64,000 nucleotides of DNA from Frigoribacterium sp. Leaf263. Lineage in GTDB: Bacteria; Actinomycetota; Actinomycetes; Actinomycetales; Microbacteriaceae. The notes under the pieces are model-generated. The model made no database searches. It saw only the letters and a list, made by a program, of their open reading frames with translations, and was not told the DNA's origin. The translations under genes were made by a program, and so were the position numbers. The stretch is taken from NCBI RefSeq assembly GCF_001422285.1, contig NZ_LMMO01000003.1:697135-761134 (forward strand), written 5' to 3'. Shown here piece by piece: positions 45,326 through 62,357 of this stretch. Position 1 is the stretch's first letter, and every line of letters starts with the position of its first letter.

Positions 45326-45353
45326 ACCCCGGGCGGGGCGTGTCAGACGGCGC

Positions 45354-45548
45354 TCACTCGTCGGCGACGCCCTTGCTGACCGCGGTCGGAGCGTCGAACG
45401 AATCGCCCTCCAGCCCCTGCAGCGCCTCGATCACGTCATCGGGGGCGCCCTGGTCCTCGGCGGCGGCGATCAGGTCGTCCTTCGACACCGGGTAGTCGAT
45501 GCCGCTGAGGTACTTCTGCATCTGGATGGGGTTCGGGGTATCGGCCAT
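45354..45548 (-). CDS. DUF2795 domain protein
   Basis: A 64-residue protein matching DUF2795: QMQKYLSGIDYPVSKDDLI, then AAEDQGAPDDVIEALQGL, consistent with a small three-helix fold related to histone-like or Fe-S-adjacent regulators. Function unknown. It follows the family 2 glycosyltransferase by 16 bp on the same strand, so it is probably the last gene of the ALDH-hldE-GT2 operon; in other actinobacteria DUF2795 genes are found in varied contexts. Confidence 0.85.
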   Translation of the reverse strand: MADTPNPIQMQKYLSGIDYPVSKDDLIAAAEDQGAPDDVIEALQGLEGDSFDAPTAVSKGVADE

Positions 45549-45564
45549 GACGGTCTCTCTCTTC

Positions 45565-46536
45565 TCATCTCGTGGTCAGCCGGTCGGAGTCGACCGGCCG
45601 CTCGGTCCCGTCGGCGCCCACCGGCTTCTCCGGCCGGTCGGATCCGACGAGACGGTCGAGGTCGACCACGTCGGTCGCCTCGACGTCTCGGTGCGGCACG
45701 GTGGTGGGCGCCTCGAGGTGGACGGCTCCGCTGGGGACGATGCCCGCGCCTCCTCGGCGTTCCATCACGCGCCACTGCGCGGCGACGTCCTCGCCCGCGT
45801 GATCGGGCGGCAGCTCGTCCCAGAAGTCGAAGCCTCCGACCTCGAGCAGCGTCTCTCGGCGGTACAGCGCGCAGCCGCCCACCCACGCGACCCGATACGC
45901 CGCCCAGTCACCCGGCTCGAGGTCGAGGCTCGCGGCCTCGTGGGCGAGGTTGGCCGCGTTGTGCAGCGGCCATCGCTCGAAGCCGGGGCCGCCCCGCCGG
46001 ATGCGCTCGGGCTCGACGCGGCCCGGCCAGAGTTCGAACGCCTCGCGCTCCTGAGGCCGCACGTCGCCGAGATGCGACAGCCCCTGGACGGCCGACCCGA
46101 CGAAGCCGCAGTCGAGTCGCTCCAGAGCGTCGTGCAGTCGGGTGAGGGTGCCGGGTTCGAGCCACACGTCGTCGTCGAGGAACAGCACGGCGGGCGCAGT
46201 GGCCCGCTCGAGCAGCGACTGCCGGTGCTCGGCGAGCCCCCGCCGCGGGTGGTGCACGTGGGTGGAGACGGGACGGCCCTGGGCTCGCAGCACCCGCAGC
46301 ATCGCCTGCGCGGCGGGTGCGGCCCAGTCGGGCTCTCCCGTCGACTGGTCGCTGATCACCACCGAGAAGGGCGGGTCGTCCTGCGCGGCGAGGCCGGCGA
46401 GAGTGACGGCGAGCTCGGCCGGTCGGTCGGCCGTGGGCACGAGCACGTCGATCGCGGGGGGCACCGGAGGCGCGGCTCCCTCGTCGACGACCGCCGACGA
46501 GGCCCACGCACCCGACCAGCGTCTGCTGACGGTCAT
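45565..46536 (-). CDS. Family 2 glycosyltransferase
   Basis: A 323-residue GT-A enzyme. DVLVPTADRPAELAVTLAGL near residue 29 binds the sugar nucleotide, VLFLDDDVWLEPGT near 116 carries the metal-binding Asp triad, and GGCALYRRETLLEVGGFDF near 215 is the acceptor-side motif with AGEDVAAQWR. It lacks membrane helices, so it acts at the cytosolic face. The donor is unknown; the upstream hldE suggests heptose. The C-terminal 40 residues (SDRPEKPVGADGTERP) are repetitive. An internal copy of the 14-bp repeat encodes the RRGGAG stretch (45743-45754). ATG overlaps the hldE stop. Confidence 0.85.
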   Translation of the reverse strand: MTVSRRWSGAWASSAVVDEGAAPPVPPAIDVLVPTADRPAELAVTLAGLAAQDDPPFSVVISDQSTGEPDWAAPAAQAMLRVLRAQGRPVSTHVHHPRRGLAEHRQSLLERATAPAVLFLDDDVWLEPGTLTRLHDALERLDCGFVGSAVQGLSHLGDVRPQEREAFELWPGRVEPERIRRGGPGFERWPLHNAANLAHEAASLDLEPGDWAAYRVAWVGGCALYRRETLLEVGGFDFWDELPPDHAGEDVAAQWRVMERRGGAGIVPSGAVHLEAPTTVPHRDVEATDVVDLDRLVGSDRPEKPVGADGTERPVDSDRLTTR

Positions 46537-48137
46537 GGAGCGCTCCCCGCGCCGCGGATGCGTTCGACGAGGCCTGTCGTCGAGTGGTCGGCGACGTAGT
46601 CGAGGATCCGCACCTCGCCGCCGCCCTCGAGCACGGCCGAGGTCTCTTCGAGCATCTGCGGCGTGTAGTCGCCGCCCTTGGCGTAGAGATCCGGGCGGAT
46701 CCGCCGGATCAGGGGGATGGGCGTGTCGGTCGAGAACGACGTCACGTAGTCGACGCAGCTGAGCGCCGAGAGGACTCCGGCCCGGTCGGCGAGGGCGTTG
46801 ATCGGTCGGTCGGGGCCTTTCAGCCGGCCGGTCGAATCGTCGTCGTTCAGCGCGACCACGAGCACGTCACCCAGCTGCTTCGCCTGGGTCAGGTACGTCG
46901 TGTGCCCCCGGTGCAGAACGTCGAAGCAGCCGTTCGTGAGGACGATGCGGCGACCGGCGGCGCGTTCGTCGTCGAGTCGCCGGGCGAGGTCGTCGGCCGG
47001 CAGCAGGAGATCGCCCGTGCGGTCGAGGTGGATGAGGAGGTCGTCGGTCGAGCAGACGGAGGTGCCGAAGCGCTGCACGACGACATCCGCGGCCGCTTGA
47101 GCCAGATCGACGCTCGTCGTGAGCGGCAGACCCGCGGCGCGGGCCACGGTGAGCGCCGCGACGAACGAGTCCCCGGCGCCGGAGGCCTGCCGCTCGCGCG
47201 CGCGCCGGGCCCAGGTGCGATGCCGTACCCGCGCCTCCTGCCGGGGGTGGTCCGCGGCGTCCGGGTCGGCCTCGTCCTCGGCGGCGGAGACCGAGGAGGC
47301 GGTCGTCACGTCGAGGGGATCCCTCGCGAGGGTGAGGGTCCCGTCGTGATCGAGCGTGACGACGACGGCCGCGGCGTCGGTCGCGTCGAGCAGCGCATCC
47401 GCTGCGCCGGTGACGCGGGCCACGCGCTCGTCGCTCGGGACGGCGTCGCCGACGGAGAGCGGGACCAGCGCGGCCGTCTCGGCCGCGTTGGGGGTCACGA
47501 TGTCCGGACGCAGGCGCGCCCAGGGCCGCAGGTCGTGAGCATCGACGACGACCAGGCCCGGACGCCCGCTCCGCTCTCGCGCGACGAGGGCGTCGAGCAC
47601 GGCCCCGGTGAGGGCGCCGGAGCCGTAGTCGCAGACGAGCTCGGCGTCGGCGCCGTGCGACTGCGCCGACGCGTTCTCGGCGAGCAGGTCCAGAGCCTCG
47701 GCAGGCGGGGGCTCGGTCGCGAGGTCGTCGAGCCGGATGAGCACCTGATCGTCGACGAGCACGCGGTTCTTCGCGACGGTCGTCAGGCCGCGCACGCGGA
47801 CGACACCCGTCGTGTCGACGCCGTGGGCCGCGAGAAGGGCCGTGAGACGCCGACCCGCGTCGTCGTCGCCGACGAGACCCGCGACCCGGACGCGCGCACC
47901 GAGGGCCGCGAGGTTCACCGCCGTGTTGGCGGCTCCTCCGGGCACGTACCGTCGGGTCGCCACCTCGACGACGGGCGCGGGGGCCTCGCGCGTCATGCGC
48001 TCCGTCGTGCCCTGCCACCAGCCGTCGAGCATGAGATCGCCGACGACGCTCACCACCGGGGCCGTCTCGCGCAGCGCGCGGACCACGTCGGGACTCAGTC
48101 CGCGGACCCTCGTCAGGTCGACCGGCATGCCGATCAC
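46533..48137 (-). CDS. hldE: Bifunctional heptose 7-phosphate kinase / heptose 1-phosphate adenylyltransferase, copy 1
   Basis: A 534-residue HldE-type fusion. The PfkB kinase domain (about 28-350) has VVGDLMLDGWW near 32, PGGAANTAVNLAALG near 66 and the catalytic GAGDSF at 320-325. The nucleotidyltransferase domain (about 395-534) has TNGCFDVLHRGHTTYL near 401 (HxGH), GRLKGPDRPIN near 438 and KGGDYTP near 487. It would phosphorylate D-glycero-D-manno-heptose 7-phosphate at C1, then transfer AMP after GmhB removes the 7-phosphate. An Asp/Arg-rich insertion (about 281-317) before GAGD is unusual and contains a copy of the 14-bp repeat. GTG 48137 follows GGAGG and overlaps the ALDH stop. Confidence 0.9.
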   Translation of the reverse strand: MIGMPVDLTRVRGLSPDVVRALRETAPVVSVVGDLMLDGWWQGTTERMTREAPAPVVEVATRRYVPGGAANTAVNLAALGARVRVAGLVGDDDAGRRLTALLAAHGVDTTGVVRVRGLTTVAKNRVLVDDQVLIRLDDLATEPPPAEALDLLAENASAQSHGADAELVCDYGSGALTGAVLDALVARERSGRPGLVVVDAHDLRPWARLRPDIVTPNAAETAALVPLSVGDAVPSDERVARVTGAADALLDATDAAAVVVTLDHDGTLTLARDPLDVTTASSVSAAEDEADPDAADHPRQEARVRHRTWARRARERQASGAGDSFVAALTVARAAGLPLTTSVDLAQAAADVVVQRFGTSVCSTDDLLIHLDRTGDLLLPADDLARRLDDERAAGRRIVLTNGCFDVLHRGHTTYLTQAKQLGDVLVVALNDDDSTGRLKGPDRPINALADRAGVLSALSCVDYVTSFSTDTPIPLIRRIRPDLYAKGGDYTPQMLEETSAVLEGGGEVRILDYVADHSTTGLVERIRGAGSAP

Positions 48138-49756
48138 CCGCCCTCCGCGGGCTGCCCGGGATGCACCCGGGGCTGGTCATCGCCCTCGGCGTCTGACGCG
48201 CCCTCGGCGTCCGGGTCTCCGCCCTCGGCCGGGTCCTGGGGATGCGGGGTCCGGCCGGGTCCGGCATCGACCGCGACCTCGTCGGTCGGCGCCCTGCCGG
48301 TCGCGGTCAGCACGGGGGAGCCGTAGTGGACCACCTTCGTGAGGGTCATCTCGTCGAGCAGCTCGGGCCCGTAGCCGAAGCCCGCCCCGCTCTCTCCGCG
48401 AGGCTGGGCGGAGCCGCCGGGGGCCCCGCCGAAGACGGCGTTGATCTTGACCGTGCCCACCGGCAGCTCGGCCACGGCGCGGTTGGCGTTCGCGATCGAG
48501 CCCGTGAGCACGGTCGCGGCGAGTCCGTACCGGTCGGCCGAGGCGAGGGCCAGGGCCTCGTCGAAGTCGGCGACCACCTGCACGGGCGCGACCGGGCCGA
48601 ACGTCTCCTCCTGCATGATCGTCATCCTCGGACCGCAGTCGACCAGGACGGTCGCCGGGTACCACGCGCCCGGCCCCGACGGCACGGCGCCGCCCACGAG
48701 GGCGGAGGCGCCGCTCGCCAGGGCCTCGTCGACCTGGCGCTGCACCTCGTCGCGGAGCCGACGGTCGACGAGGGGGCCGAGCTCGTGCCGTCCGTTGCGA
48801 CGCGTCGCCTCGGCCGCCAGGGCTTCGACGAACGCCGGCGCGATCTCGCGATGCACGAAGACGCGTTCGACGCTCGTGCAGATCTGACCCGCGTTGGCGA
48901 ACGCGCCGACGGCGGCCTGCTCGGCGGCCCACACGGGATCGACGCCCGCGTCGACGATCAAGGCGTCATCGCCGCCGTTCTCGAGCACGACATGGGCGCC
49001 GGTGAGGGCGGCGACGCGGGCGATGCGGCGGCCGGTCGCGGTGGAGCCGACGTGCGCGATCGCGTCGACGTCGGGCTGCTCGGTGAGGGCGGCGCCGACC
49101 GCGCCGCCTCCGGAGACCGTCATGAGCACCTCGGGGGGCAGGACTCCGGAGAGGACCTCGCCGAGCATGCGGCCCACGTGCGGGCAGCGTTCGCTCGGCT
49201 TGTGCACGACGGTGCTGCCCGTGACGAGCGCCGCGCCGATGAGACCGCACGCGACCGCCACGGGGTCGTTCCAGGGCGTGATGACCGCGACGACGCCTCG
49301 GGGCTGATCGATGGTGAAGTCGGCCGCGTCGCGAGCACCCACGAGACTGCGGCCGCGGTGCAGAGGACCGATCTCGGCGTACTGACGCAGGGTGTCGGCG
49401 CCGGCGAGCACGCCGCCGAGAGCGTCGTCGAAGGGCTTGCCGGTCTCGCGTCCGTTCAGTGCCGCCATCTCGTCCGCACGCTCACGGAGCGCGGTCGCGG
49501 CCGCGTGCAGCAGGACCCCGCGGTCCGCCGCCGGGGTGCGCATCCAGGCATCCTGGGCCGACCGGGCCCGGCGCACGGCGTCGGCGACCTCCTCGCGGCC
49601 GGCCTCGACGACGCTGCCGACGAACGAGTCGTCGCGCGGGTCGAGCACGGTCAGGGTGCCGGTGCCGGTGCCGGTGCCGGTGCCGACCGCCGCCGCCGGG
49701 ACGGCGTGCGGGGCCCGCTCGGCGAGACCGGTCGGGCCCGTCGTCGGGCGACTCAC
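48134..49756 (-). CDS. Aldehyde dehydrogenase family protein
   Basis: A 540-residue NAD(P)-dependent aldehyde dehydrogenase. The oxyanion Asn lies in ITPWNDPVAVACG near residue 160, the general base Glu in VVLENGGDDA near 257 and the catalytic Cys in NAGQICTSVERVF near 290; EETFGPVAPVQVV near 385 is also conserved. The C-terminal 60 residues (GGDPDAEGASDAEGDDQ) are acidic and not conserved. The N-terminus is odd: a Gly-Thr run encoded by five GGTGCC repeats. The GTG start has no ribosome site of its own and overlaps the stop of a 12-codon reading frame. Substrate unknown; being first in the hldE operon, it may oxidise a sugar aldehyde. Confidence 0.85.
   Translation of the reverse strand: MSRPTTGPTGLAERAPHAVPAAAVGTGTGTGTGTLTVLDPRDDSFVGSVVEAGREEVADAVRRARSAQDAWMRTPAADRGVLLHAAATALRERADEMAALNGRETGKPFDDALGGVLAGADTLRQYAEIGPLHRGRSLVGARDAADFTIDQPRGVVAVITPWNDPVAVACGLIGAALVTGSTVVHKPSERCPHVGRMLGEVLSGVLPPEVLMTVSGGGAVGAALTEQPDVDAIAHVGSTATGRRIARVAALTGAHVVLENGGDDALIVDAGVDPVWAAEQAAVGAFANAGQICTSVERVFVHREIAPAFVEALAAEATRRNGRHELGPLVDRRLRDEVQRQVDEALASGASALVGGAVPSGPGAWYPATVLVDCGPRMTIMQEETFGPVAPVQVVADFDEALALASADRYGLAATVLTGSIANANRAVAELPVGTVKINAVFGGAPGGSAQPRGESGAGFGYGPELLDEMTLTKVVHYGSPVLTATGRAPTDEVAVDAGPGRTPHPQDPAEGGDPDAEGASDAEGDDQPRVHPGQPAEGG
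49655..49684. repeat. GGTGCC x5 microsatellite in the aldehyde dehydrogenase
   Basis: Five perfect 6-bp units encode a Gly-Thr run at about residues 25-34. Length changes would keep frame, so it could vary the linker but not switch the gene off. Confidence 0.8.
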
Positions 49757-49791
49757 ATCGGCACCGGGGTGCTGGGGGCGAAGGTGCTCAT
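49753..49791 (-). CDS. Possible 12-codon leader peptide before the aldehyde dehydrogenase
   Basis: ATG at 49791, preceded by GAGAGGA 7 bp upstream, encodes MSTFAPSTPVPM and stops at a TGA overlapping the GTG start of the dehydrogenase (ATGTGAG). The dehydrogenase itself has no ribosome site, so coupled re-initiation would explain its translation. Could equally be a chance reading. Confidence 0.35.
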   Translation of the reverse strand: MSTFAPSTPVPM

Positions 49792-49881
49792 GAGGGCGTC
49801 CTCTCGTGTCGGTGCCCCTGCCCTACCCCGGCAGGGTCGGCCTCACACGTCACGATCCGCGTCGTCGCCGGCACGGCACGC

Positions 49882-49931
49882 AGGAGGCGCGGGTCGGGTG
49901 GGCGATCCCGCCCCGTCGACCCGCGCCTCCT
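49882..49931 (-). terminator. Hairpin from two inverted 14-bp repeats after the aldo/keto reductase
   Basis: AGGAGGCGCGGGTC (49882-49895) and GACCCGCGCCTCCT (49918-49931) pair perfectly with a 22-nt loop, 8 bp after the reductase stop. Confidence 0.7.
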
Positions 49932-49939
49932 CGGTCCGG

Positions 49940-50944
49940 CTACGCCTCGCGACCGGCCGGCATCTGCGTCTTCCGAGGGTCGGTCTCGGCGAGTCCCTCG
50001 AAGATCGACTCGATCCTCGACAGCACGTCGGCCTCGAGCGTGACGCCCGACGCCTTCGCGTTCGACTCGACCTGCTCGGGGCGCGAGGCGCCGATGATCG
50101 CCGAGGCGACGTTCTCGTTCGAGAGCACCCAGGCGAGGGAGAGCTGAGCCTGCGTGAGGCCCAGGTCGTCCGCGATGGGCTTCAGCTGGGCGACCGCGTC
50201 GAGCACGTCGTCGCGCATCCAGCGCTCGATCATCGCCGCGCCGCCCTTCTGGTCCGTCGCGCGGCTGCCCTCGGGCAGGGCGGCGCCCTTCGCGTACTTG
50301 CCGGTCAGCACGCCCTGGGCGATGGGCGACCAGACGATCTGCGAGATGCCGAGCTCCTTCGAGGTCGGCACCACCTCCTCCTCGATGACGCGCCAGAGCA
50401 GCGAGTACTCGGGCTGATTCGACACGAGCTGGATCTTGAGCTCGCGGGCGAGGGCGTGCGCCTCGCGCAGCTGCTCGGCGTTCCACTCCGAGACGCCGAT
50501 GTAGAGGACCTTTCCCTGGCGCACCAGGTCGGCGAAGGTCTCCATCGTCTCCTCGAGGGGCGTCTCGACGTCGTAGCGGTGCGCCTGGTAGAGGTCGACG
50601 TAGTCGGTCTGGAGCCGCCTGAGCGACGCGTTGATCGACTCGGTGATGTGCTTGCGGCTGAGCCCGGTGTCGTTGTGCCCCTTGGGGCCGGTGGGGCCGT
50701 AGACCTTGGTGAAGATCTCGACCGACTCGCGCCGCTCGCCCTTCAGGGCCTCGCCGAGCACGACCTCGGCCTGGGTGTTCGCGTAGACGTCGGCGGTGTC
50801 GAACGTCGAGATGCCGACGTCGAGGGAGGTCCGGACGCAGGCGGCCGCCGTGTCGTTCTCGACCTGCGAGCCGTGGGTGAGCCAGTTGCCGAAGGTGAGC
50901 TCGGAGACCTTGAGGCCCGAGTTGCCGAGGTACCTGAATTCCAT
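49940..50944 (-). CDS. Aldo/keto reductase (Kv beta-like)
   Basis: A 334-residue NADPH-dependent oxidoreductase. The catalytic tetrad is visible: Asp and Tyr in FDTADVYANTQAE near 50, Lys in IFTKVYGPTG near 82 and His in YQAHRYDVETP near 122. Cofactor-binding residues lie in GASRPEQVESN near 295. It begins MEFRYLGNSGLKVSELTFGN; the ATG at 50944 is fixed by this family start and an AAGGAG 7 bp upstream. It lies alone on the minus strand, divergent from the GT9 gene. A role in sugar or aldehyde detoxification is possible but not shown. Confidence 0.9.
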   Translation of the reverse strand: MEFRYLGNSGLKVSELTFGNWLTHGSQVENDTAAACVRTSLDVGISTFDTADVYANTQAEVVLGEALKGERRESVEIFTKVYGPTGPKGHNDTGLSRKHITESINASLRRLQTDYVDLYQAHRYDVETPLEETMETFADLVRQGKVLYIGVSEWNAEQLREAHALARELKIQLVSNQPEYSLLWRVIEEEVVPTSKELGISQIVWSPIAQGVLTGKYAKGAALPEGSRATDQKGGAAMIERWMRDDVLDAVAQLKPIADDLGLTQAQLSLAWVLSNENVASAIIGASRPEQVESNAKASGVTLEADVLSRIESIFEGLAETDPRKTQMPAGREA

Positions 50945-51062
50945 GGGGTGTGCTCCTTGTCGGGCGCGCTCCGATGCGCGCCGCCGTGCACGGTAGTCCG
51001 CACACCGTGGTTTGGCGACGCGTGTCGGCGGGCACGGGAGCATCGACAGAGAGAGGATCACC

Positions 51063-52454
51063 GTGAGCTGCGAACGACGTCGGCCCGTGCCCGGACTCCC
51101 GCCGCTCGGCGAGACGCTCCCCGACGTGCGGCGCATCGCCGTGCTGCGCGGCGGCGGGCTCGGCGACCTCGTCTTCGCCCTGCCGGCGATCGCCGCGCTG
51201 AGGGCGAGCTACCCGGGCGCCTCGGTGACCCTGCTGGGGTCGCCCGTGCACCGTGCGCTCCTGGCGGGCCGGCCCGAAGTCGTCGACGAGGTCGACGTGC
51301 TGCCCGTCGTGCCGGGCGTGGGCGATGCGTCGGGTACCGAGGTCGACGACGCCGCCACCGAGCGCTTCGTCGCGCGGCACCGCGCCCGGGGCTACGACCT
51401 CGCGGTGCAGGTGCACGGCGGCGGCCGCAACTCGAACCCCTTCCTGCTGCGGCTCCGGGCACGGCACACGATCGGCACCCGCACCTCCGACGCGGTGCCG
51501 CTCGAGCGCACGATCCCGTACGTCTACTACCAGCACGAGGTGCTGCGGGCCCTCGAGGTCGTCGCGCTCGTCGGGGCGGCCCCCGCCGGAGGCACCGTGC
51601 TGGCCCCGACCCCGGCCGAGCTCGAGCGCGGTGCCGAGCTGCTCGGCCGCTCGGGCCCCGACGGTGACGGCCGGCCGGTGGTCGCCCTCCATCCCGGGGC
51701 GAGCGACCCGAGGAGGCGCTGGTCGCCCGACCGCTTCGGTCACCTCGCGGCCCGGCTCGCGCACCACGGCGTGCGGGTCGTCGTCGTCGGCGAAGGCGAG
51801 GACGTCGCCCTGGCCGACCGGATCGTGGCCGTGGCGCGCGCGCGGGAGCCGCGCCGCGCCTCCCTGGTGGGCTCGCTCGCCGGCCGGCTGAGCCTCTCCG
51901 ACCTCGTCGGGGTGCTGGCGTCGGTCGACGCCTTCGTGGGGAACGACAGCGGTCCGCGGCACGTGGCGGAGGCCGTCGGCACGGCGACGAGCTCGGTGTT
52001 CTGGTTCGGCAACGTGATCAACGCGGGTGCCCTCGGCCGCACCCTGCACCGCGTCGCCATGGCGTTCACCACGGCCTGCCCCGTCTGCGGCGTCGACATC
52101 ACGCAGGTCGGGTGGACGGCGGAGCGCTGCGAGCACGACGCGAGCGTGGTCGACGCCGTCACGCTCGACGAGATGTGGGAGAACACTCGGGAGGTGCTCG
52201 ACGGGGTGCTCGCCGACCGCGGGGAACGGGCCGAGCGCGAGGCCGTCGAGTGCGACCTCGACGAGCGCGAGGCCGTCGAGTGCGACGACGACGAGCGCGA
52301 GGTCGTCGAGTGCGACCTCGACGGGCGCGAGGTCGTCGACGGGGACGACGCCGGGGACGGTGCCCCGGGCCCGGCCCGGGGCGAACCGGTCGCCGAGACG
52401 GCGGCCCGCCCCGGGGGGACGCAGGTCGACCCGACGTACGGCCTGCGGGGCTGA
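51063..52454 (+). CDS. Family 9 glycosyltransferase (heptosyltransferase-like) with repetitive C-terminal tail
   Basis: A 463-residue GT-B enzyme. IAVLRGGGLGDLVFALPAIA near residue 25 and VALHPGASDPRRRWSP near 205 are typical of ADP-heptosyltransferases; FVGNDSGPRHVAEAVGT near 295 binds the donor. CPVCGVDITQVGWTAERCEHD near 340 adds a Cys cluster. The final 75 residues are low-complexity, built on four imperfect copies of a 10-residue acidic unit. The GTG start follows GAGAGGAT. No membrane segment. The donor is probably a nucleotide-heptose from the neighbouring pathway genes, by inference. Confidence 0.85.
   Translation: MSCERRRPVPGLPPLGETLPDVRRIAVLRGGGLGDLVFALPAIAALRASYPGASVTLLGSPVHRALLAGRPEVVDEVDVLPVVPGVGDASGTEVDDAATERFVARHRARGYDLAVQVHGGGRNSNPFLLRLRARHTIGTRTSDAVPLERTIPYVYYQHEVLRALEVVALVGAAPAGGTVLAPTPAELERGAELLGRSGPDGDGRPVVALHPGASDPRRRWSPDRFGHLAARLAHHGVRVVVVGEGEDVALADRIVAVARAREPRRASLVGSLAGRLSLSDLVGVLASVDAFVGNDSGPRHVAEAVGTATSSVFWFGNVINAGALGRTLHRVAMAFTTACPVCGVDITQVGWTAERCEHDASVVDAVTLDEMWENTREVLDGVLADRGERAEREAVECDLDEREAVECDDDEREVVECDLDGREVVDGDDAGDGAPGPARGEPVAETAARPGGTQVDPTYGLRG
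52233..52352 (+). repeat. 30-bp minisatellite in the GT9 gene
   Basis: Four tandem 30-bp units, 52233-52262, 52263-52292, 52293-52322 and 52323-52352; the first three differ at only a few bases, the fourth more. Each encodes a 10-residue unit starting ER(E)AVECD or a variant. Confidence 0.9.
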
Positions 52455-52491
52455 CCCCGCCGACGGCCCGGGGCGCGGGCCGTCGACGGGG
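52455..52491. terminator. Bidirectional terminator between the GT9 gene and the secreted repeat protein
   Basis: CCCCGCCGACGGCCC (52455-52469) pairs 14 of 15 bp with GGGCCGTCGACGGGG (52477-52491) in the gap between convergent genes. Confidence 0.75.
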
Positions 52492-52503
52492 TCGGGGTGA
52501 CGC

Positions 52504-53835: not shown

Positions 53836-53846
53836 GGTGCTCCTTG

Positions 53847-53876
53847 GATCAGGCGTGCCGGAGTGGCACGCTGATC
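53847..53876. promoter_or_regulatory. Imperfect palindrome in the 5' region of the secreted repeat protein
   Basis: GATCAG-G-CGTGCC (53847-53859) pairs with GGCACGCTGATC (53865-53876), with one bulged base. It lies between a minus-strand -10-like TAGCAT (53880-53885) and the ribosome site, so it may be an operator or RNA hairpin. Confidence 0.55.
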
Positions 53877-53994
53877 AGAATGCTACACATCGCATGTCGG
53901 CTGGTCGCGCGGACGCCCTCTCGCGGCCCCCGTGGTGTGGCCCGGCGAGGCGCCGGCCCGGGGTGCTCCGCATCGTGTCCCAGACGCGTGGCGC

Positions 53995-54741: not shown

Positions 54742-54840
54742 GGTGGTTCCTTCCGGTGGGTGCACGACGTCACGGTGTGCGCGACGCGATGCGGGTTCGA
54801 GGGCGGGTGCCGGTCGCGGCGGGTCAGGTCGCGGCGGGCC

Positions 54841-54882
54841 AGGAGGCGCGGGTCAGGAGGCGCAGGTCGGGAGGCTCGGGTC
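54841..54882. repeat. Three tandem copies of the 14-bp repeat
   Basis: AGGAGGCGCGGGTC, AGGAGGCGCAGGTC and GGGAGGCTCGGGTC lie head to tail, with no spacer, immediately after hldE copy 2 (minus strand); the last overlaps the stop codon by 2 bp. Confidence 0.9.
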
Positions 54883-56293
54883 ATCCCACGCGGGCGAGGG
54901 CCGACGCGAGACGGGTCGTCGAGCGCCCCGGGTGGAACGGCACGGTGACGGTGCGCCCGCCCCAGCCCGCCACGAGCGACGCCTCGGGCAGGGTCTCGGC
55001 GTCGTAATCGCCGCCCTTGACCCAGACGTCGGGCCTCAGCCGGTCGAGCACGGCGTGCGGGGTGTCCTCGTCGAAGACGATCACAGCGTCCACGCACTCG
55101 AGCGCCAGCAGGAGGTCGACCCGGTCGCCCTGGCTCATGATCGGGCGCTCGGGGCCCTTCAGACGGCTCACCGACGCGTCGCTGTTCACGCAGACCACGA
55201 GGCAGTCGCCGAGCGCCCGGGCTGCTGCGAGCGTCCGGGCGTGGCCGGCGTGCAGCAGGTCGAAGCAGCCCCCGGTGGCGACGACCGTGCCGCCGCCGGC
55301 GGCGACGCGCCGGCACACGGCGAGGGCGTCGGCACCGGGCAGGACGACCGGTTCGGGAGGTGCGTCGTCCGCAGAACGGTCACCGCGCCTCCCGAGCGCC
55401 GACAGATCGAGAGCCGCCACCCCTCCGGCGGCGAGGAACGCCGCCGCCGCGTGGACGGCGCGGCCGAGCGCCTCGTCGAGGGGGAGCCCCTCGACGAGCG
55501 CCACGGCGAGGGCCGACGCGAGCCGGTCGCCGGCACCGCACGGGTCGACCGTGCCGATCGCGGGGGCCGGCACGTGGGCGGCGACCGCGGCGGTGTCGTG
55601 CGTGACGAGCACGGCGCCGCGCGACCCGAGCGTGACGGCGACGCTCGCGACGTCCCAACGGCGGCGGAGCGCCGCCCCGGCCGCCCCGGCCGAGGGGATG
55701 TCGTCCACCTCGGCCCGGTGCAGGGCCTGCGCCTCGCCCTGGTTCGGGGTGACGACGGTGCAGCCGGGCACGGGGCGCGCACCGCGGGGGTGCGGGTCCC
55801 AGACCACCGGCACACCCCGTCGGGCGGCCGTCCGCAGGGCGGCGCGGAGGGGCTCCGCGGCGGTGAGCCCCCGACCGTAGTCGGCGACGACGAGGGCGTC
55901 CGCCCCGAGCACCGCCTCGAGCATCTCGTCGGTGACCGTCGGCGGGGCGACGGGACCGCAGTGGTCGTCGACGCGGGCGATCGCGTGTCCGCCCTCGGCC
56001 CGGAGCCGTGTCTTGGTCGGCGTGCCGGCGCCGAGCGGACCCGCGACGACGGGCACGGCGCCCAGCGCGGCCCGGAGCTCGGCGGCGCCGTCGTCGTCCG
56101 CGAGGGCTGTGACGAGCGTGACCTCGACGCCGTCGAGGGCGAGCATCGCGGCGACCAGCCCGGCGCCGCCGGCACGTCGACTGCGTGCCGAGACGTCCAC
56201 CACGGGGACGGGTCCGTCAGGACTGAGCCTCGTGGCCGTGCCGATCACGTCGACGTCCAGCAGGGTGTCGCCGACGACCACGACCCCGCTCAC
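54881..56293 (-). CDS. hldE: Bifunctional heptose 7-phosphate kinase / heptose 1-phosphate adenylyltransferase, copy 2
   Basis: A 470-residue HldE-type protein. Kinase domain (1-300): VVVGDTLLDVDVIG near 4, RAGGAGLVAAMLAL at 40-53 (where copy 1 has GGAANTAVNLAAL) and catalytic DPCGAGD at 250-256. Adenylyltransferase domain (about 335-470): ATGGCFDLLHAGHARTL at 339-355 with HxGH, RLKGPERPIM near 377 and KGGDYDAETLPEA near 426. It diverges from copy 1 throughout and is not a recent duplicate. It lies right after gmhA and is coupled by GTGA, so it is the likelier pathway enzyme. No HldD is encoded nearby. Confidence 0.9.
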   Translation of the reverse strand: MSGVVVVGDTLLDVDVIGTATRLSPDGPVPVVDVSARSRRAGGAGLVAAMLALDGVEVTLVTALADDDGAAELRAALGAVPVVAGPLGAGTPTKTRLRAEGGHAIARVDDHCGPVAPPTVTDEMLEAVLGADALVVADYGRGLTAAEPLRAALRTAARRGVPVVWDPHPRGARPVPGCTVVTPNQGEAQALHRAEVDDIPSAGAAGAALRRRWDVASVAVTLGSRGAVLVTHDTAAVAAHVPAPAIGTVDPCGAGDRLASALAVALVEGLPLDEALGRAVHAAAAFLAAGGVAALDLSALGRRGDRSADDAPPEPVVLPGADALAVCRRVAAGGGTVVATGGCFDLLHAGHARTLAAARALGDCLVVCVNSDASVSRLKGPERPIMSQGDRVDLLLALECVDAVIVFDEDTPHAVLDRLRPDVWVKGGDYDAETLPEASLVAGWGGRTVTVPFHPGRSTTRLASALARVG

Positions 56294-57027
56294 GGTCGCC
56301 CTCCGAGGCCCGTGCCGCGGCGATCGGGGCCGGCGACCCCGGTGCGCTCGATCTCCGCGTCGAAGACGAGGCAGAGGGCGTGGACCGCGATGAGCTGAGC
56401 CTCCTGCACGTTGGACGACGGCCCCGGCAGGGTGACGGCGTCGTCGCAGACGGATGAGAGCGGGTTCGGCCCGGGTCCCGTCAGCGCCCAGGTGGTGACG
56501 CCGATCTCCCGAGCGGCCTCGGCCGCCTCGACGAGGTTGCGGCTCGCGCCGCTCGTCGACAGCAGCACCAGGACGTCGCCCGCGCGACCGTGCCCCTGCA
56601 CCTGCCGGGCGAAGACCCGGTCGTAGCCGTAGTCGTTGCCGATCGCCGTCACGGCGCTCGACTCCGCGTGCAGCGAGATGGCCGAGAACGACGGCCTGTC
56701 CGCGGCGAAGCGTCCGACGAACTCGCTCGTCAGATGCTGCGCCTCGGCCGCCGACCCGCCGTTGCCCGCCGCGAGCAGTCGGGCGCCGGCGCTCAGACGC
56801 GCGGCGAGCTCGACGCCCCAGTCGCGCAGATGGTCGGCCTCGTCGCCGAGCGCCCGGAGCACCGGGACGAGCGTGACGAGGTGCTCGCGCACGAGATCGG
56901 CGTGATCGGGTGTCGTGGTCGTCGGCGTCCCCGGAGGCGCGGCCTCCGGCGCCTCCTGGGGGCGGATCCCCGGACTGGTCGCGGTGCGCACGATGGTGAG
57001 GGGCCGGGTGCGGATGATCGAGGTCAC
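56290..57027 (-). CDS. gmhA: Phosphoheptose isomerase (sedoheptulose 7-phosphate isomerase)
   Basis: A 245-residue SIS-domain enzyme that turns sedoheptulose 7-phosphate into D-glycero-D-manno-heptose 7-phosphate, the first step to nucleotide heptose. LLAAGNGGSAAEAQHLTSEF at 84-103 carries the phosphate loop and catalytic Glu; STSGASRNLVEA at 157-168 and NVQEAQLIAVHALC at 206-219 (catalytic Gln/His) complete the site. About 40 extra N-terminal residues precede the usual start. GTG 57027 overlaps the glycosyltransferase stop by 4 bp. Confidence 0.92.
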   Translation of the reverse strand: MTSIIRTRPLTIVRTATSPGIRPQEAPEAAPPGTPTTTTPDHADLVREHLVTLVPVLRALGDEADHLRDWGVELAARLSAGARLLAAGNGGSAAEAQHLTSEFVGRFAADRPSFSAISLHAESSAVTAIGNDYGYDRVFARQVQGHGRAGDVLVLLSTSGASRNLVEAAEAAREIGVTTWALTGPGPNPLSSVCDDAVTLPGPSSNVQEAQLIAVHALCLVFDAEIERTGVAGPDRRGTGLGGRP

Positions 57028-58298
57028 AGGGTCGCTCCTGTCAGAGGCTCCCGAGCCGCCCGGGCCTCGGCGGCCGAGCGGCGGATGGTCGAGCGGTAGC
57101 TGGTGGCGGTCACTCCGGCGATGCGGTCCCACGAGTAGCGGGCCACTGCTCGCCGACGGCCCTCACGGCCGTAGCCCGCGGCCGTCGCGGGGTCGTCGAG
57201 CAGCGCCGAGAGCGCACCCGAGATCGCCTCGGGGTCCCGCGGCGGCACGAGCCGTCCCGTCGTGCCGTCGACCACGGTGTCGATGAGTCCGCCGACGCTG
57301 GCGGCCACGACGGGGACCCCGCAGGCCATCGCCTCGAGCGGGACGATGCCGAACGGCTCGTACCAGGGGGTGCAGACGAGCGCGTCGAGCGAGCGGAGCA
57401 CGACGGGCAGCTCGCGCTGCTCGACCCGTCCGCGGAAGTCGACGCGGTCGCTCACGCCGAGCTCCGCTGCGAGCGCGGCCAGCGCCCGATACGTCGGGTC
57501 GTCGCTCAGCTGCGCGCGCGGGGGCCCGCCGATGACGAGCAGCTCGGCGTCGCGGCCGTCGGCGACCAGCCGGGCGAGGGCGGAGATCGCGTTGCCGTGG
57601 CCCTTGCGGGTGACCAGGCGACCGACGGTGGCCATCCTGACGGGGCGTCCCCGCGCCTCCTGCGGGCCGTCCGGGGTGAAGAGGCCGCTGTCGACGCCGC
57701 AGGGCGCCACGTCGATCCGGTCGGCGGGGACGCCGATGTGCCGCAGCTCGAAGACCTCGTCCGAGCAGGTGGCGATGACCGTGTCGACGTCGGCGCCGAC
57801 GCGGGGCTCGAGCCACTCGCGATCGGGCGGGCTCGTGTCGAGCAGACCCTGGTGGCGCCGCTTGACGTGTCCGAGGGCGTGGAACGTCTGCACGACGGGC
57901 ACCGGATCGCCGCCGCCGGCTCCTCGGATCGCGCGACGGCGGGCGGCGGCGACCGCGGCCAGACCGCTCATCCAGAAGTGCGCGTGCACCACGTCGGGGC
58001 GATCCTCCAGCCACGCTCGCTCGAGCCCGTCGGCGAGGGCGCGCATGTGGGGCAGCAGCTCGTCCTTGGGGAGGGGCGAAGCGGGTCCGGCGTCGACGTG
58101 CACGACGGTGACCCCCGACGGCATCTCGACGCGTTCCGGCAGGTCGGTGCCATCGCGCCGCGTGTAGACGACGACCTCATGGCCGCGCCGCACGAGGGCG
58201 GCCGAGAGCTCGGCGACGTGCACGTTCTGCCCCCCGGCGTCCACCCCGCCGAGGACGGCGAGGGGGCTGGCGTGCTCGGAGACCATGGCGATTCTCAT
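57024..58298 (-). CDS. Family 4 glycosyltransferase
   Basis: A 424-residue GT-B enzyme. The N-terminus MRIAMVSEHASPLAVLGGVD, followed by DAGGQNVHVAELSAALVRRG, resembles sucrose-synthase/D-inositol-phosphate glycosyltransferase-like GT4. The donor site has EPFGIVPLEAMACGVPVVAA near 345 with the Glu pair. GGVDAGGQNVH also matches a set that uses sugar nucleotides at the cytosolic face. A copy of the 14-bp repeat encodes a QEARG linker (57650-57661). ATG after GGAGAGGAC; ATGA overlap with the upstream gene. Confidence 0.88.
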   Translation of the reverse strand: MRIAMVSEHASPLAVLGGVDAGGQNVHVAELSAALVRRGHEVVVYTRRDGTDLPERVEMPSGVTVVHVDAGPASPLPKDELLPHMRALADGLERAWLEDRPDVVHAHFWMSGLAAVAAARRRAIRGAGGGDPVPVVQTFHALGHVKRRHQGLLDTSPPDREWLEPRVGADVDTVIATCSDEVFELRHIGVPADRIDVAPCGVDSGLFTPDGPQEARGRPVRMATVGRLVTRKGHGNAISALARLVADGRDAELLVIGGPPRAQLSDDPTYRALAALAAELGVSDRVDFRGRVEQRELPVVLRSLDALVCTPWYEPFGIVPLEAMACGVPVVAASVGGLIDTVVDGTTGRLVPPRDPEAISGALSALLDDPATAAGYGREGRRRAVARYSWDRIAGVTATSYRSTIRRSAAEARAAREPLTGATL

Positions 58299-59380
58299 GC
58301 GGGTGTCCTCTCCGTCGCCGGGATGGCGGGTCGGTCGGTGCGGTCGAGGCGGTCGGTCCGCCGGCGAGGCGGCCGTCCGGGGGCGGCGCGCGGCCCGCCC
58401 GCCACGACGCCGCCGAGGACGGCGTCCCAGTCGGTCAGGAAGCGCGCGAGGCCGAAGCGCTCGAGGGCGTGGGTCCTCGCCGCCTCGCCTGCGGCCCGGG
58501 CGGCGTCCGGGTCGGCGATCAGCTCGCGGGCGGCGCGCACGAGCTCGTCGAGGTCCGTCGAGAGGGCGCCGGCGTCCGGCGGGACGGCGCGCAGAGCCTC
58601 CGTCGTGGCGAGCGCGACGACCGGCATCCCCGCCTGCATCGCCTCGATGAGCGACAGCCCGAGGCTGGTCCAGCGGATCGGGTGCAGGTAGACGCGGCAC
58701 CGAGCCAGTCGTCGGTGGAGCTCACGCGTCGGGAGGTCGCCGACGACCTCGAGCCGATCGGGCCCGAGTCCGGTGACCCGCGGAAGGTCGTCCGCCCCCA
58801 TGCCGAAGACGTCGAGCGGGGCCGCTGCGGCGAAGCTCGGCAGCAGGTCGGTGCCGGTGACCCTCCCTCGGCGCACGGGGTCGTTGACGACGACGCCGAG
58901 TCGCGCGAGCTCGCCCGTGTAGAGGGGGCCCGGGTCGACGACTCCGTGCTCGACCACGGTGGTGGGGGCGTCGCCGCAGTCCCAGAACAGGGCGTTGAAG
59001 TGGGTGACGTGCACCACGAGCACGTCGTCGCGCTCGGCGAGGGGGTGTCGACTGTCGGGGACCGCGACCCTCGGGGCGTTGTGCTCGACGAAGACGGCCG
59101 GCACGCGCCCGGGGCCGTGGCCGAGGGGGCGGCCGAGCAGACGCTCGGCCTCGGCGAGCTCCTCGGTGCGCTGCAGCACGACGAGGTCGACGTCGGCGTC
59201 GTGGAGCGACTCCGGGGCGACCTCCGTCACGGAGTCCGGCCAGTCGCGACCGGCCCGGCCGAGTCCCCACGCGCCTCCTTCGCGGGTCGTCGGCAGCAGG
59301 TACTCGTGGTCGCCGCGCACGAAGGCGTCGGTCCAGCCGCCGTGCACGTGCCAGAGCAGGATCGTCAGGCGTCCGGTCAT
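58295..59380 (-). CDS. GT-B glycosyltransferase (GT1/GT4-like)
   Basis: A 361-residue protein. Its start, MTGRLTILLWHVHGGWTDAF, is a recognisable GT-B nucleotide fold. FVEHNAPRVAVPDSRHPL near 105 and TSLGLSLIEAMQAGMPVVAL near 255 (acidic donor-side motif) are conserved in glycosyltransferases that act on surface polysaccharides. Translation is coupled by ATGA at both ends. The C-terminal 25 residues are Arg/Pro-rich and probably disordered. Donor and acceptor are unknown. Confidence 0.82.
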   Translation of the reverse strand: MTGRLTILLWHVHGGWTDAFVRGDHEYLLPTTREGGAWGLGRAGRDWPDSVTEVAPESLHDADVDLVVLQRTEELAEAERLLGRPLGHGPGRVPAVFVEHNAPRVAVPDSRHPLAERDDVLVVHVTHFNALFWDCGDAPTTVVEHGVVDPGPLYTGELARLGVVVNDPVRRGRVTGTDLLPSFAAAAPLDVFGMGADDLPRVTGLGPDRLEVVGDLPTRELHRRLARCRVYLHPIRWTSLGLSLIEAMQAGMPVVALATTEALRAVPPDAGALSTDLDELVRAARELIADPDAARAAGEAARTHALERFGLARFLTDWDAVLGGVVAGGPRAAPGRPPRRRTDRLDRTDRPAIPATERTPA

Positions 59381-60537
59381 CGGGCGGCCTCCTCGGATTC
59401 GATCGGGCGGGACGCGCCCGCGGTCGTGAGGGGCCTCGTCCGGAGGGGAGCCGAGGAGGCGCGGGTGGCCTCCTCGAGGCCGTGGCGCCCCGGTCGTCCC
59501 GCGAGTCGCGTCACGGCCTCGGCCGCATCCGCGGCGGTGACGCCCGTCAGGCACGGATGCCCCGCGACGGGGCACTCGCGCGCGCGACTGCCCCGGCAGG
59601 CCGCCGACTGATCGCCGAGCAGCACCACGGGCACGCCGTAGGGAGCCCAGCGCGAGGCCGGCACGACGGGGGAGAAGAGACTGACGACGGGGGTGCCCAC
59701 GGCGGCGGCGAGATGGGCAGGGCCGGTGTTGCCGGTGACGACGGCCGCCGCTCGCTCGAGGACGACCGCGAGGACCCCGAGATCGGTGCGCCCCGACAGG
59801 TCGACGCCGACTCGGCCCGCGACCGCGCGCGCCAGCGGCGCCTCGGCGGCTGCTCCCGTCACGACGACGATCCAGCCGGCCGAGGCCAGCGCCTCGACGG
59901 TCTCGCGGTTGCGGTCGACCGACCAGGCGCGCGAGGGGACGGCCGCCCCGGGATGCACGACCACGAACGGGGCGCCGCCGACGGTCTCGGCGAGCAGAGC
60001 CACGGCGGCTGCCCGCGCCGCTTCGCCCGGCTCGACGGCGAGGCGACCGTCGTCGCCCGCGGGCGATGCGAAGCCGGCCGCCTCGGCGATCCGTCGGGCC
60101 CGCTCGGGCTCGGGCTGATCCTCGTCGAGCGTCTCGCCGGGTCGGAGGCGGACGTCGAGCAGGCTGCCCGCGTAGTCGACGGAGGCTCCCGTGATGCGGA
60201 CGACGCCCGCCAGCCGGAGCAGGAGGGCCAGCGGCAGGGGCGACTGGTGGAACGAGGTCAGGATCACCGCCTCCTCGGGGTCGACGTCGGCGAGCAGCTC
60301 GGCGAGCTCGTCGAGGCGGGCGTCCGAGACGGCGGGGGCCGGGTCGACGATCCACGGTGCCGCCCAGGTGAGGACCCGGTCGACGCCCGGCAGGAGGCGG
60401 GCGGCGGCGGCGCCCTGCGGACCGGCGAGCACGGTGACCTCGACGTCGGGCTGCGCCGCGACGGCGCGGATCGCGGGACCGGAGATCAGCACGTCGCCGG
60501 CGCTGTCGAGTCGCGCGACGAGCACGCGGCGGGTCAT
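59377..60537 (-). CDS. Family 9 glycosyltransferase (heptosyltransferase-like)
   Basis: A 386-residue GT-B enzyme. RRVLVARLDSAGDVLISGPA near residue 3, FVVVHPGAAVPSRAWSVDRN near 195 and VTGNTGPAHLAAAVGTPVVS near 270 match ADP-heptosyltransferases. The C-terminal 40 residues (EEATRASSAPLRTRPL) are a non-conserved tail; a near-perfect 14-bp repeat copy lies there (59454-59467). ATGA overlaps with gmhB and with the next gene tie it to the heptose operon. Likely donor: ADP-heptose, by inference from family and context. Confidence 0.88.
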   Translation of the reverse strand: MTRRVLVARLDSAGDVLISGPAIRAVAAQPDVEVTVLAGPQGAAAARLLPGVDRVLTWAAPWIVDPAPAVSDARLDELAELLADVDPEEAVILTSFHQSPLPLALLLRLAGVVRITGASVDYAGSLLDVRLRPGETLDEDQPEPERARRIAEAAGFASPAGDDGRLAVEPGEAARAAAVALLAETVGGAPFVVVHPGAAVPSRAWSVDRNRETVEALASAGWIVVVTGAAAEAPLARAVAGRVGVDLSGRTDLGVLAVVLERAAAVVTGNTGPAHLAAAVGTPVVSLFSPVVPASRWAPYGVPVVLLGDQSAACRGSRARECPVAGHPCLTGVTAADAAEAVTRLAGRPGRHGLEEATRASSAPLRTRPLTTAGASRPIESEEAAR

Positions 60538-61187
60538 GCCGCACCGCCCGCGGGAGGAGCGGTCGACGCGAGGCCGTCGGGCACGAGGCCGCGGCCGGCG
60601 GTGTCGGCGGATGCCGGCCCGACGACGGGGCGGACGCCGCGCCCGGTGAGGTGCGCGACGGCGAGGTCGACCGCCCGCCGGATGTCGGCGGCGACCACGT
60701 CGGCGTCGTCGATCTCCTCCTGCAGGGTCACGGCCGTGGGCACGAGCACGGAGCGGGCCCCCGCGGCGCGCGCTGCGACGACGTCGCTGCCGATGTCGCC
60801 GATCACGACGCAGTCGCCCGGCTCGACGCCGAGCGCGTCCGCCGCGGTCAGCACCAGTCCCGGCGCCGGCTTGCGGCAGCCGCAGCCCTCCGACGCGGCA
60901 TGAGGGCAGACGGCCCAGAAGTCCAGCCGACCGACGAGCTCGTCCACGCGGCGGTTGACCGCGTCGACCCGCTCCCGGGTCAGCGCACCCTCGCCGACGG
61001 CGGACTGATTGGTGACCGCTCCGACGGCGAGACCGGCCCGACGGACGGCGGCCACCGCCTCCCGGGCACCCGGCATGAGGACCACGCGGGCGGGGTCGCC
61101 GTTGCGCACCACGTCGACGACGAGCGTGCCGTCGCGGTCGAAGAGCACCGCACCGGCACGCGAGGAGGTGCGGCTCGAGCTGGTCAT
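60534..61187 (-). CDS. gmhB: D-glycero-beta-D-manno-heptose 1,7-bisphosphate 7-phosphatase
   Basis: A 217-residue HAD-IIIA phosphatase, first gene of the heptose operon. The nucleophile and acid/base Asp pair lie in LFDRDGTLVVD at 15-25; TNQSAVGEG at 59-67 and the zinc-binding loop CPHAASEGCGC at 94-104 (Cys, His, Cys, Cys) are hallmarks of GmhB. GDIGSDVVAARAAGA near 130 binds Mg. It removes the 7-phosphate from heptose 1,7-bisphosphate. An ATG start with no strong ribosome site; the C-terminal 40 residues are extra. Confidence 0.9.
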   Translation of the reverse strand: MTSSSRTSSRAGAVLFDRDGTLVVDVVRNGDPARVVLMPGAREAVAAVRRAGLAVGAVTNQSAVGEGALTRERVDAVNRRVDELVGRLDFWAVCPHAASEGCGCRKPAPGLVLTAADALGVEPGDCVVIGDIGSDVVAARAAGARSVLVPTAVTLQEEIDDADVVAADIRRAVDLAVAHLTGRGVRPVVGPASADTAGRGLVPDGLASTAPPAGGAA

Positions 61188-61247
61188 GACCGGTCCCTGC
61201 CCCGGGGCGCCCGCCGTGAAACGTGCCCCGGTCGCCTTCTTCTCCGA

Positions 61248-61303
61248 GCCCTCCTCCTCGCTTCCGCCCCGCCGCCGTCGGCGCCGCGCCGCAGGAGGAG
61301 GGC
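61248..61303. repeat. Large inverted repeat in the gap between gmhB and the next GT9 gene
   Basis: GCCCTCCTCCT (61248-61258) and AGGAGGAGGGC (61293-61303) pair exactly around a GC-rich core. It lies in the 198-bp divergent promoter region of two heptose-locus transcripts. Confidence 0.6.
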
Positions 61304-61385
61304 GCGCGCCACCCACGCCCTTGCGCCCTTCTGAGCGCTGCGCAACCCCTCGACACGTCGAGACGCCCGGTGGCAGCGTGGCCGC

Positions 61386-62357
61386 ATGCGACGACTCCCC
61401 GACGCCGACGGCGCTCCCGAGCTCCTGGCCCTCAGGGCCCTCAAGCTCGGGGATCTGCTGGTCGCCGTGCCCGCCCTGAACGCCGTCGTCCGCGAGCGTC
61501 CCGAGCACCGGATCGTGCTCGCCGTCCCCGGGTGGCTGGAGCCGATCGCGGATCTCGTGCCCGGGCTCGACGTGCTCTGGCCGACACCGGGTCTCGACCA
61601 TCCGCTCGGCATCGCGTCCGGGCGCCTCGACACGGTCATGAACCTCCACGGGAACGGCCCCGAGAGCCGGCGTGCGCTCGAGCAGCTCGACGCACGGGTG
61701 CGCCTCGGCCACGAGAGCCCCGGATGGACGGGCCCGACGTGGGAGGACGGCGTCCTCGAGCGGCATCGCTGGGCGCGGCTCGCGACCGAGCACGGGATGC
61801 CCGCCGACGAGGGCGACATCAGCATCGACCGGCCCTGCGTCCCGAGCCCCGCCCCCGGGGCGGTCGTCGTGCACGTCGGAGCCTTCTACGCCTCGCGGCA
61901 CTGGCCGGTCGACCGCTTCGCCCGCGTCGTCCGGTCGTTCCGCGACGACGGGCATCGTGTGGTGCTGACCGGCAGCACCGCGGAACGGGCGCGGGCGCTC
62001 GATGTGGCCGCGTCCGCCGGTCTGACGGACGTCGAGGTGGCCGAGCACGTCCTGGCGGGCGCCATCGACCTCGCGCAGATGGCGTCCCTCGTCGCGGACG
62101 CCGCGCTCGTCGTGAGCGTCGACACCGGGGCGGCCCATCTGGCCTCGGCCTACTCGACGCCCTCCGTCGTCCTCTTCGGTCCGGCGCCGCCCGAGGAATG
62201 GGGGCCCCCGGCCACCGGGCCGCACGTGGTCCTCACCGACGCCGCCTCGCGCGTCGGCGACACGTTCGGCTCGGAACCGGATCCGGCGCTCCTGGCCGTC
62301 TCCGCCGCGGACGTCGTGTCCGCTGGTCGCGACGTGCTCCGCCGGGCGGTCCGATGA
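61386..62357 (+). CDS. Family 9 glycosyltransferase (heptosyltransferase-like)
   Basis: A 323-residue GT9 enzyme. LLALRALKLGDLLVAVPALN near residue 13, VVVHVGAFYASRHWPVDRFA near 160 and LVVSVDTGAAHLASAYSTPS near 239 give the family pattern. No membrane helix. Its ATG at 61386 has no strong ribosome site. The stop overlaps the GAF-ANTAR gene by 4 bp (ATGA), an unexpected coupling of a glycosyltransferase to a regulator. It starts 198 bp from gmhB on the other strand, so both may share control. Confidence 0.87.
   Translation: MRRLPDADGAPELLALRALKLGDLLVAVPALNAVVRERPEHRIVLAVPGWLEPIADLVPGLDVLWPTPGLDHPLGIASGRLDTVMNLHGNGPESRRALEQLDARVRLGHESPGWTGPTWEDGVLERHRWARLATEHGMPADEGDISIDRPCVPSPAPGAVVVHVGAFYASRHWPVDRFARVVRSFRDDGHRVVLTGSTAERARALDVAASAGLTDVEVAEHVLAGAIDLAQMASLVADAALVVSVDTGAAHLASAYSTPSVVLFGPAPPEEWGPPATGPHVVLTDAASRVGDTFGSEPDPALLAVSAADVVSAGRDVLRRAVR

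Follow-up and report, generated by a model that had tools for sequence, protein, structure and literature searches.

In the actinomycete Frigoribacterium sp. Leaf263 (source genome, 3.24 Mb), we analysed a window of 64,000 nucleotides (contig NZ_LMMO01000003.1, positions 697,135 to 761,134; "the window" is this whole stretch, and coordinates below count from its first letter) that contains a cassette of predicted heptose and glycan genes. Labels such as GT_K, GT9_L or SIG_P are names coined in this analysis. At the heart of the cassette, a minus-strand operon runs gmhB-GT9_L-GT_K-GT4_J-gmhA-hldE2, in which, given the starts we chose, neighbouring genes share 4 bp. In this operon, candidate genes for the heptose enzymes GmhB (60534..61187), GmhA (56290..57027, start uncertain) and HldE2 (54881..56293) enclose those for a family 9 glycosyltransferase (GT9_L, 59377..60537), a GT-B/GT4-like glycosyltransferase (GT_K, 58295..59380) and an MshA-like GT4 (GT4_J, 57024..58298), with a minus-strand gene for a short-chain dehydrogenase (SDR_G, 53995..54741; PF00106, 127.8 bits) behind. 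A second minus-strand operon, ALDH_C-hldE1-GT2_A, holds another HldE gene (46533..48128, with a possible GTG start at 48137), coupled to both its neighbours, which encode an aldehyde dehydrogenase (48134..49756; PF00171, 380 bits) and a family 2 glycosyltransferase (45565..46536; PF00535, 47.6 bits). Two further family 9 genes, GT9_E (51126..52454) and GT9_N (61386..62357), stand on the plus strand, and the genes of a GAF-ANTAR regulator (62354..63187, plus strand) and of a SigB/SigF/SigG-type sigma factor (SIG_P, 63018..63980, minus strand) close the set.

We read the whole as a cassette for a heptose-containing glycan, at a probability of about 0.7 and with the acceptor left unassigned. Most likely it makes a nucleoside diphosphate (NDP)-activated D-glycero-D-manno-heptose and transfers it to a glycan; this reading, like what we say of export and regulation, is drawn from sequence. 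An earlier note on this DNA had placed the six operon genes and all three family 9 genes where family matches now confirm them. It had also described the six as one coupled operon, which the overlaps and the conserved gene order bear out. Its division into two operons stands too, while its count of a single HldE does not, and the unit is wider than it had stated.

Candidate enzymes for heptose activation and transfer

The proposal of a complete GmhA/GmhB/HldE route (four activities) to an NDP-D,D-heptose, coupled to likely heptosyltransferases, also came from the earlier note, and the kept motifs speak for it. For GmhA (SIS_2, 85.7 bits), every one of the 11 best among 15 sequence matches in the PDB bears the title phosphoheptose isomerase, the remaining four include two of the related DiaA, and the motifs NGGSAAEAQHLTSE and QEAQLIAVH are present, with what we take to be the metal-binding residues among them. 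GmhB, the putative heptose bisphosphate 7-phosphatase, keeps DRDGT and the zinc motif CPHAASEGCGCRKPAPG, and among solved proteins comes closest to a heptose bisphosphate phosphatase (4pnh, E 4e-22). Both HldE proteins join a PfkB kinase to a nucleotidyltransferase domain and keep GAGD, HxGH and KGGDY; against the rfaE_dom_II cut-off of 181.5 bits, HldE1 reaches 186 and HldE2, at 180.1, falls just below. A structural model of HldE2 (mean predicted local distance difference test, pLDDT, 83.5; predicted template modelling score 0.63) finds HldA in all seven of its best structural matches. No HldD epimerase passes its cut-off in this genome (best 95.7 versus 274.6 bits), so that the D-glycero form of the heptose is expected.

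On the transferase side, the three family 9 enzymes match PF01075 at 76.7 (GT9_E), 79.9 (GT9_L) and 82.3 bits (GT9_N) against a cut-off of 22, and a genome search returned these three only. The solved protein nearest to GT9_E is heptosyltransferase II (1psw). With the lipopolysaccharide (LPS) heptosyltransferases WaaC and WaaF they share the family, an N-terminal GD, HPGA or VGA, and DSG/NTG/DTG..H motifs. GT4_J matches PF00534/PF13439 at 124 bits and TIGR03449 at 232 bits, below the cut-off of 462.5. GT_K, which serves as our locus marker, matches PF00534 at 44.5 bits; the nearest folds to its model (pLDDT 86) include sucrose-P synthase, PimB', PimA, BshA and GlgM.

Several observations nevertheless weigh against so neat an assignment. 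NCBIfam equivalog cut-offs are mostly missed, by the two HldE (355 and 278 of 521), by GmhA (154 of 276) and by GmhB (100 of 178), whose best NCBIfam match is in fact a generic histidinol-phosphatase domain that passes its own cut-off and scores slightly above the GmhB equivalog. The family 9 enzymes, unlike WaaC and WaaF, score weakly on the heptosyltransferase I, II and III equivalogs (42-76 bits versus cut-offs of 134.6-185.3), and rfaE_dom_I gives the two HldE only 204 and 144 of 345. Moreover, the kinase signature GGAANxAxN is missing from HldE2, and the DPK found in E. coli HldE is missing from both proteins, so that the sugar could differ. The missed cut-offs may befit a distant branch, yet we take them as a caution.

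The candidate pathway shares with the Gram-negative ADP-heptose pathway (GmhA, HldE, GmhB, HldD) an isomerase, a bifunctional HldE and a phosphatase with catalytic motifs, but it differs in lacking an HldD above the cut-off, in having two HldE paralogues and in standing outside any known LPS context. Tang et al. reportedly described tridomain NDP-heptose synthetases from actinobacteria in 2022. The likeness lies in NDP-heptose synthesis in actinobacteria, whereas here the isomerase is not fused to the kinase and nucleotidyltransferase, GmhA and HldE2 coming from separate, overlapping open reading frames, and a second HldE is added.

A moving cassette in a widespread locus

The cassette fills about 19.5 kb (44972..64000 and on) between relA and a point 477 bp beyond the end of the window. 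Its limits were set by comparison with G162, the closest relative, where the site is empty: the counterparts of positions 44971 and 64478 are joined with 6 bp between them, and RelA is 99% identical. The site downstream of relA is equally cassette-free in the five further congeners inspected (G151, G110, G150, G159 and G035). Two of these, G150 and G159, carry the locus at another chromosomal place, with two HldE each; G162 and G151 have no HldE. While relA occurs in 16/16 congeners, GT_K is found in 3/16, and SIG_P in the same three. We read the cassette as one that moves horizontally and carries its own SigB/SigF-type sigma factor. The empty site and the different chromosomal place are the evidence for movement; sequence divergence was considered and dropped, since the identity of cassette DNA to G150 and G159 (69.7-82.1%; 91.4% for the aldo/keto reductase gene) overlaps with that of the flanks (78.4-90.3%). 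The G+C content is 0.73-0.77 in the cassette versus 0.67-0.70 in the preceding 8 kb, and reaches 0.74 elsewhere in the window. The two cassette ends have only a few 11-mers in common, and no integrase was found among the genes scanned. Just within the cassette edge lies a small acidic open reading frame of 58 residues (45092-45268), with a purine-rich stretch before its ATG.

Among actinobacterial relatives the locus is widespread, not rare, which does not support the rarity in Gram-positives that the earlier note had supposed. The GT_K profile detects 98 of 394 genomes of the class, about a quarter, in 46 of 138 genera, and the HldE1 profile (which also detects HldE2) 92; both occur together in 91 genomes, GT_K only in 7 and HldE only in 1. 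Carriers include Arthrobacter, Rathayibacter, Clavibacter, Curtobacterium, Streptomyces, Micromonospora, Frankia and Pseudonocardia. To describe gene content we use 80 named loci, the best 80 of at least 580 found with GT_K as bait, many of whose stretches do not span the full locus. The core order from gmhB to hldE2 is intact in 69 of them, so that the arrangement is more than chance. GT4_J and GT_K are present in all 80, GT9_L in 78, GmhA in 77, GmhB in 74 and HldE2 in 73, followed by SDR_G (64), GT9_N (58), HldE1 (50), GT9_E (43), ALDH_C (42), SIG_P (41) and GT2_A (22, many stretches ending before it). Three Streptomyces and Microbispora loci (L135, L104, L148) share with the window gmhB, GT9_L, GT_K, GT4_J, gmhA and hldE2, but lack the HldE1 module in the compared stretch. 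In these, a carbamoyltransferase gene adjoins (L135 5814-7439, L104 5532-7166, L148 7520-9094), which suggests a carbamoylated sugar; a 7-O-carbamoyl heptose is found in the LPS core of Pseudomonas.

Other genes belong to the genus rather than to the wider locus. The aldo/keto reductase gene AKR_D (49940..50944, minus strand; PF00248, 256 bits) has a 95% identical counterpart close to the locus in both G159 and G150 and is matched, weakly, in one of the 80 loci; it is within the cassette in the genus Frigoribacterium and outside the wider locus. The 443-residue product of SEC_F (52504..53835, minus strand) looks secreted, with repeated segments, a signal-peptide-like N-terminus and zero Pfam or NCBIfam matches; it is 54% identical in G150 and is a genus-level passenger. 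Likewise, the GAF-ANTAR gene (ANTAR, 76.9 bits), also present in G150 and G159, is a cassette member in Frigoribacterium only.

The sigma factor (SigBFG, 212 bits, below the cut-off of 234) would probably control expression of the cassette. Of the 41 loci that show a sigma match, 39 have its gene on the plus strand, the nearest matched neighbour being GT9_N or gmhB. Against our overall reading count the other 39 of the 80 loci, in which a sigma match is missing, the lack of the ANTAR gene in all 80, and a promoter search with one loose SigF-like pattern, which gave three matches in the window, none inside the cassette.

Two kinds of HldE

HldE1 and HldE2 are two deep clades. In a tree of 66 rows, 56 of them random and the others chosen, each forms one clade with a bootstrap of 100; the rows came from a pool of 160, made up of 71 HldE1 and 85 HldE2 sequences with suitable lengths, the two HldE of the window, that of E. 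coli and that of locus L050. The kinase signature GGAANxAxN is found in 70 of 73 HldE1 and in none of 92 HldE2. At the C-terminus, the two proteins of the window differ in STTR5, a mark of heptose nucleotidyltransferases that also use CTP or UTP (PMC11573728, PMC11461863). HldE2 reads FHPGRSTT, a strict (F/L)xxGRSTT match, whereas HldE1 reads YVADHSTT, with no Arg, and does not conform. In the relatives, the Arg is kept by 81 of 83 scorable HldE2 (9 unscorable) versus 17 of 65 scorable HldE1 (8 unscorable, 3 reading ERSTA), in counts that omit L050-L054 and include at least some duplicates (G016, G097 and G134 are probably L098, L134 and L112). The strict (F/L)xxGR start is kept in only 19 of the 83. 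The HldE1 of the window also has about 30 extra residues before GAGD (47226-47321), mostly absent from 20 aligned relatives.

How the two types are shared out argues for HldE1 as an add-on. Within the family, the nucleotidyltransferase model finds matches at E 1e-3 in 68 of 150 genomes; 24 of these exceed the cut-off, 20 of them with two matches of at least 178 bits. One of these 20 is G132, where the partner of HldE1 is another kind of HldE (L050); in the tree this partner falls with E. coli HldE, though on long branches flagged by the tree tool. L050 (C1:403001-423000) is a second gmhB-gmhA-hldE set with a family 9 gene, 28-37% identical to those of the window, which G132 carries in addition to the HldE1 module. 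G068, G125 and G008 carry HldE1 alone, and gmhA is absent from the locus. In G053 the HldE2 (L043 4091-4957) is a kinase domain with no nucleotidyltransferase domain, so that HldE1 would have to supply that activity there. Across the class, 23 genomes have a match in the HldE1 range (at least 440 bits to the HldE1 profile, the ranges being read by us from the scores of at most three candidates per genome), and 21 of these have one in the HldE2 range as well. The remaining 69 of the 92 HldE genomes have no HldE1-range match, although four (G256, G354, G391 and G433) show pieces, maybe of a broken-up HldE1. Because G068, G125 and G008 keep HldE1 without gmhA in the locus, and because these 69 genomes do without it, we consider HldE1 an addition; HldE1 as the main heptose enzyme was considered and not preferred.

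Not every locus helps to decide the matter, and some speak against our reading. The named loci without HldE1 in Streptomyces (L104, L109, L135) and Micromonospora (L120, L122, L136) reach only about 6.5 kb past HldE2, so that they do not by themselves show its absence, and the stretch of Frankia L144 (gmhA, gmhB and HldE1) ends at the hldE2 position and decides nothing. In three Pseudonocardia loci (L116, L124, L140), gmhA and gmhB are present while the compared stretch shows no match to HldE2, and two of the 23 genomes with HldE1, G369 and G527 (63% complete), have no HldE2-range match.

Genomes with HldE1 alone might keep a gmhA outside the locus. The carriers G068, G125, G008 and G132 hold another SIS_2, GmhA-like protein elsewhere (L064 8644-13029, L065, L066 and L067). 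Its gene lies beside those of a ROK kinase and a GH38 mannosidase in G068 (L064, by Pfam) and, judged by first residues, in the other three. This gene is present in 11 of the 150 family genomes. Where the HldE1 locus lacks gmhA, all four HldE carriers have it, versus 2 of 20 where gmhA is there (Fisher p 0.0014). The association was found after the fact; moreover, G068 and G132 belong to one genus, the second set of G132 includes a gmhA of its own, and the gene neighbourhood is catabolic. G008 holds further SIS_2 proteins beyond the one counted.

The two HldE could also feed two separate NDP pools, HldE1 making ADP-heptose for GT2_A and GT9_E, and HldE2 making CDP- or UDP-heptose for the core transferases. 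We hold this to be doubtful. It counts against our main reading that the STTR5 split is not universal, the 17 Arg-bearing HldE1 coming from 15 Arthrobacter/Pseudarthrobacter loci plus L048 and L138, and STTR5 is not strictly required for nucleotide promiscuity (PMC11461863).

Product, acceptor and significance

We envision that GT9_L, GT_K, GT4_J and GT9_N would assemble a short sugar chain on some acceptor, either within the cytoplasm or on the inner face of the membrane, and that the add-on module, HldE1 with ALDH_C, GT2_A and GT9_E, would supply a second activated sugar (ADP-heptose or another) for its extension or modification. By hydropathy count, the 12 conserved proteins have no membrane segment, save for one hydrophobic stretch in the aldehyde dehydrogenase. 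No transporter, polymerase, flippase, ABC exporter or ligase family was found among these 12, the rest of the genome not having been searched for them. The locus is therefore not a complete one for a wall polymer, and the teichoic-like polymer proposed in the earlier note finds no support here. The product may be a glycolipid, a glycoprotein or a glycan handed to general export.

Tentatively, GT4_J and GT_K could start on an inositol or polyprenyl lipid, as PimA and PimB' do, with the family 9 enzymes adding heptose to form a glycolipid core reminiscent of that of LPS. The MshA-like GT4_J and the fold of GT_K, with PimB', PimA, BshA and GlgM among its neighbours, would fit, and a lipid of the inner leaflet needs no transporter; such folds are, however, generic for GT4, and no lipid-specific gene was recognised in the locus. 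We rank this about equal with an exported wall glycan, a heptose-bearing polymer of teichoic or capsule type that would leave the cell through general machinery encoded elsewhere. Such a polymer would suit the six glycosyltransferases, which could assemble an oligosaccharide repeat, and the patchy presence among congeners, as expected of a surface antigen. There is also a precedent among actinomycetes, in that a gmhD deletion in Rhodococcus (R. ruber) is said to cost the cell its capsule and to make it aggregate, though in the different, GDP-heptose branch (PMC12298843). With the export and polymerisation families missing from the 12 proteins, and with inter-module genes that in some loci resemble (by first residues only) sugar importers, hydrolases and secreted proteins, the wall glycan is rather unlikely all the same.

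Less probable still is the heptosylation of proteins in the cytoplasm, before their export. Here the family 9 enzymes would act like TibC or Aah, the resemblance to TibC being one that we presume. The conserved enzymes do look soluble, bar the stretch in the aldehyde dehydrogenase, and a secreted-looking repeat protein, SEC_F, sits within the cassette here and in G150; yet SEC_F occurs in none of the 80 loci and no common protein target was seen. Protein heptosylation is, in itself, an established use of ADP-heptose (PMC11461863). A secondary metabolite, a heptose antibiotic such as septacidin or hygromycin B, seems very improbable: NDP-heptoses do enter antibiotics such as septacidin (PMC10948575), but no aglycone-building gene was recognised among the scanned cassette genes and the locus is widely conserved.

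A cassette for a heptose-containing glycan thus remains our preferred reading. NDP-heptose synthetases of actinobacteria are already in print; new, as far as our searches show, are the two-HldE locus, its wide and tight conservation, and its mobility together with a sigma factor. Literature searches, for which most subscription papers were beyond reach, brought up no publication that we recognised on the two-HldE locus, on the class-wide coupling to GT_K or on transfer with a sigma factor. The discoverers wrote in a commentary that the roles of CDP- and UDP-heptose "remain elusive" and named conserved neighbouring genes as hints (PMC11573728). The locus offers a hint of this kind, since its neighbourhood is conserved and, throughout the class, HldE is rarely seen apart from one glycosyltransferase. 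Often a second HldE is present as well, and in many lineages, including that of the window, it differs at the residue said to set nucleotide choice. If the two-pool split were true, CDP- or UDP-heptose would have a first physiological use, within a mobile and widespread Gram-positive glycan locus that here brings its own sigma factor. NDP-heptoses in general are potent immune agonists that act through ALPK1 (PMC11573728, PMC11461863). From this general property no host effect can be inferred for Frigoribacterium sp. Leaf263 itself; given how far the locus has spread, many actinobacteria from soil and plants may produce ALPK1 agonists.

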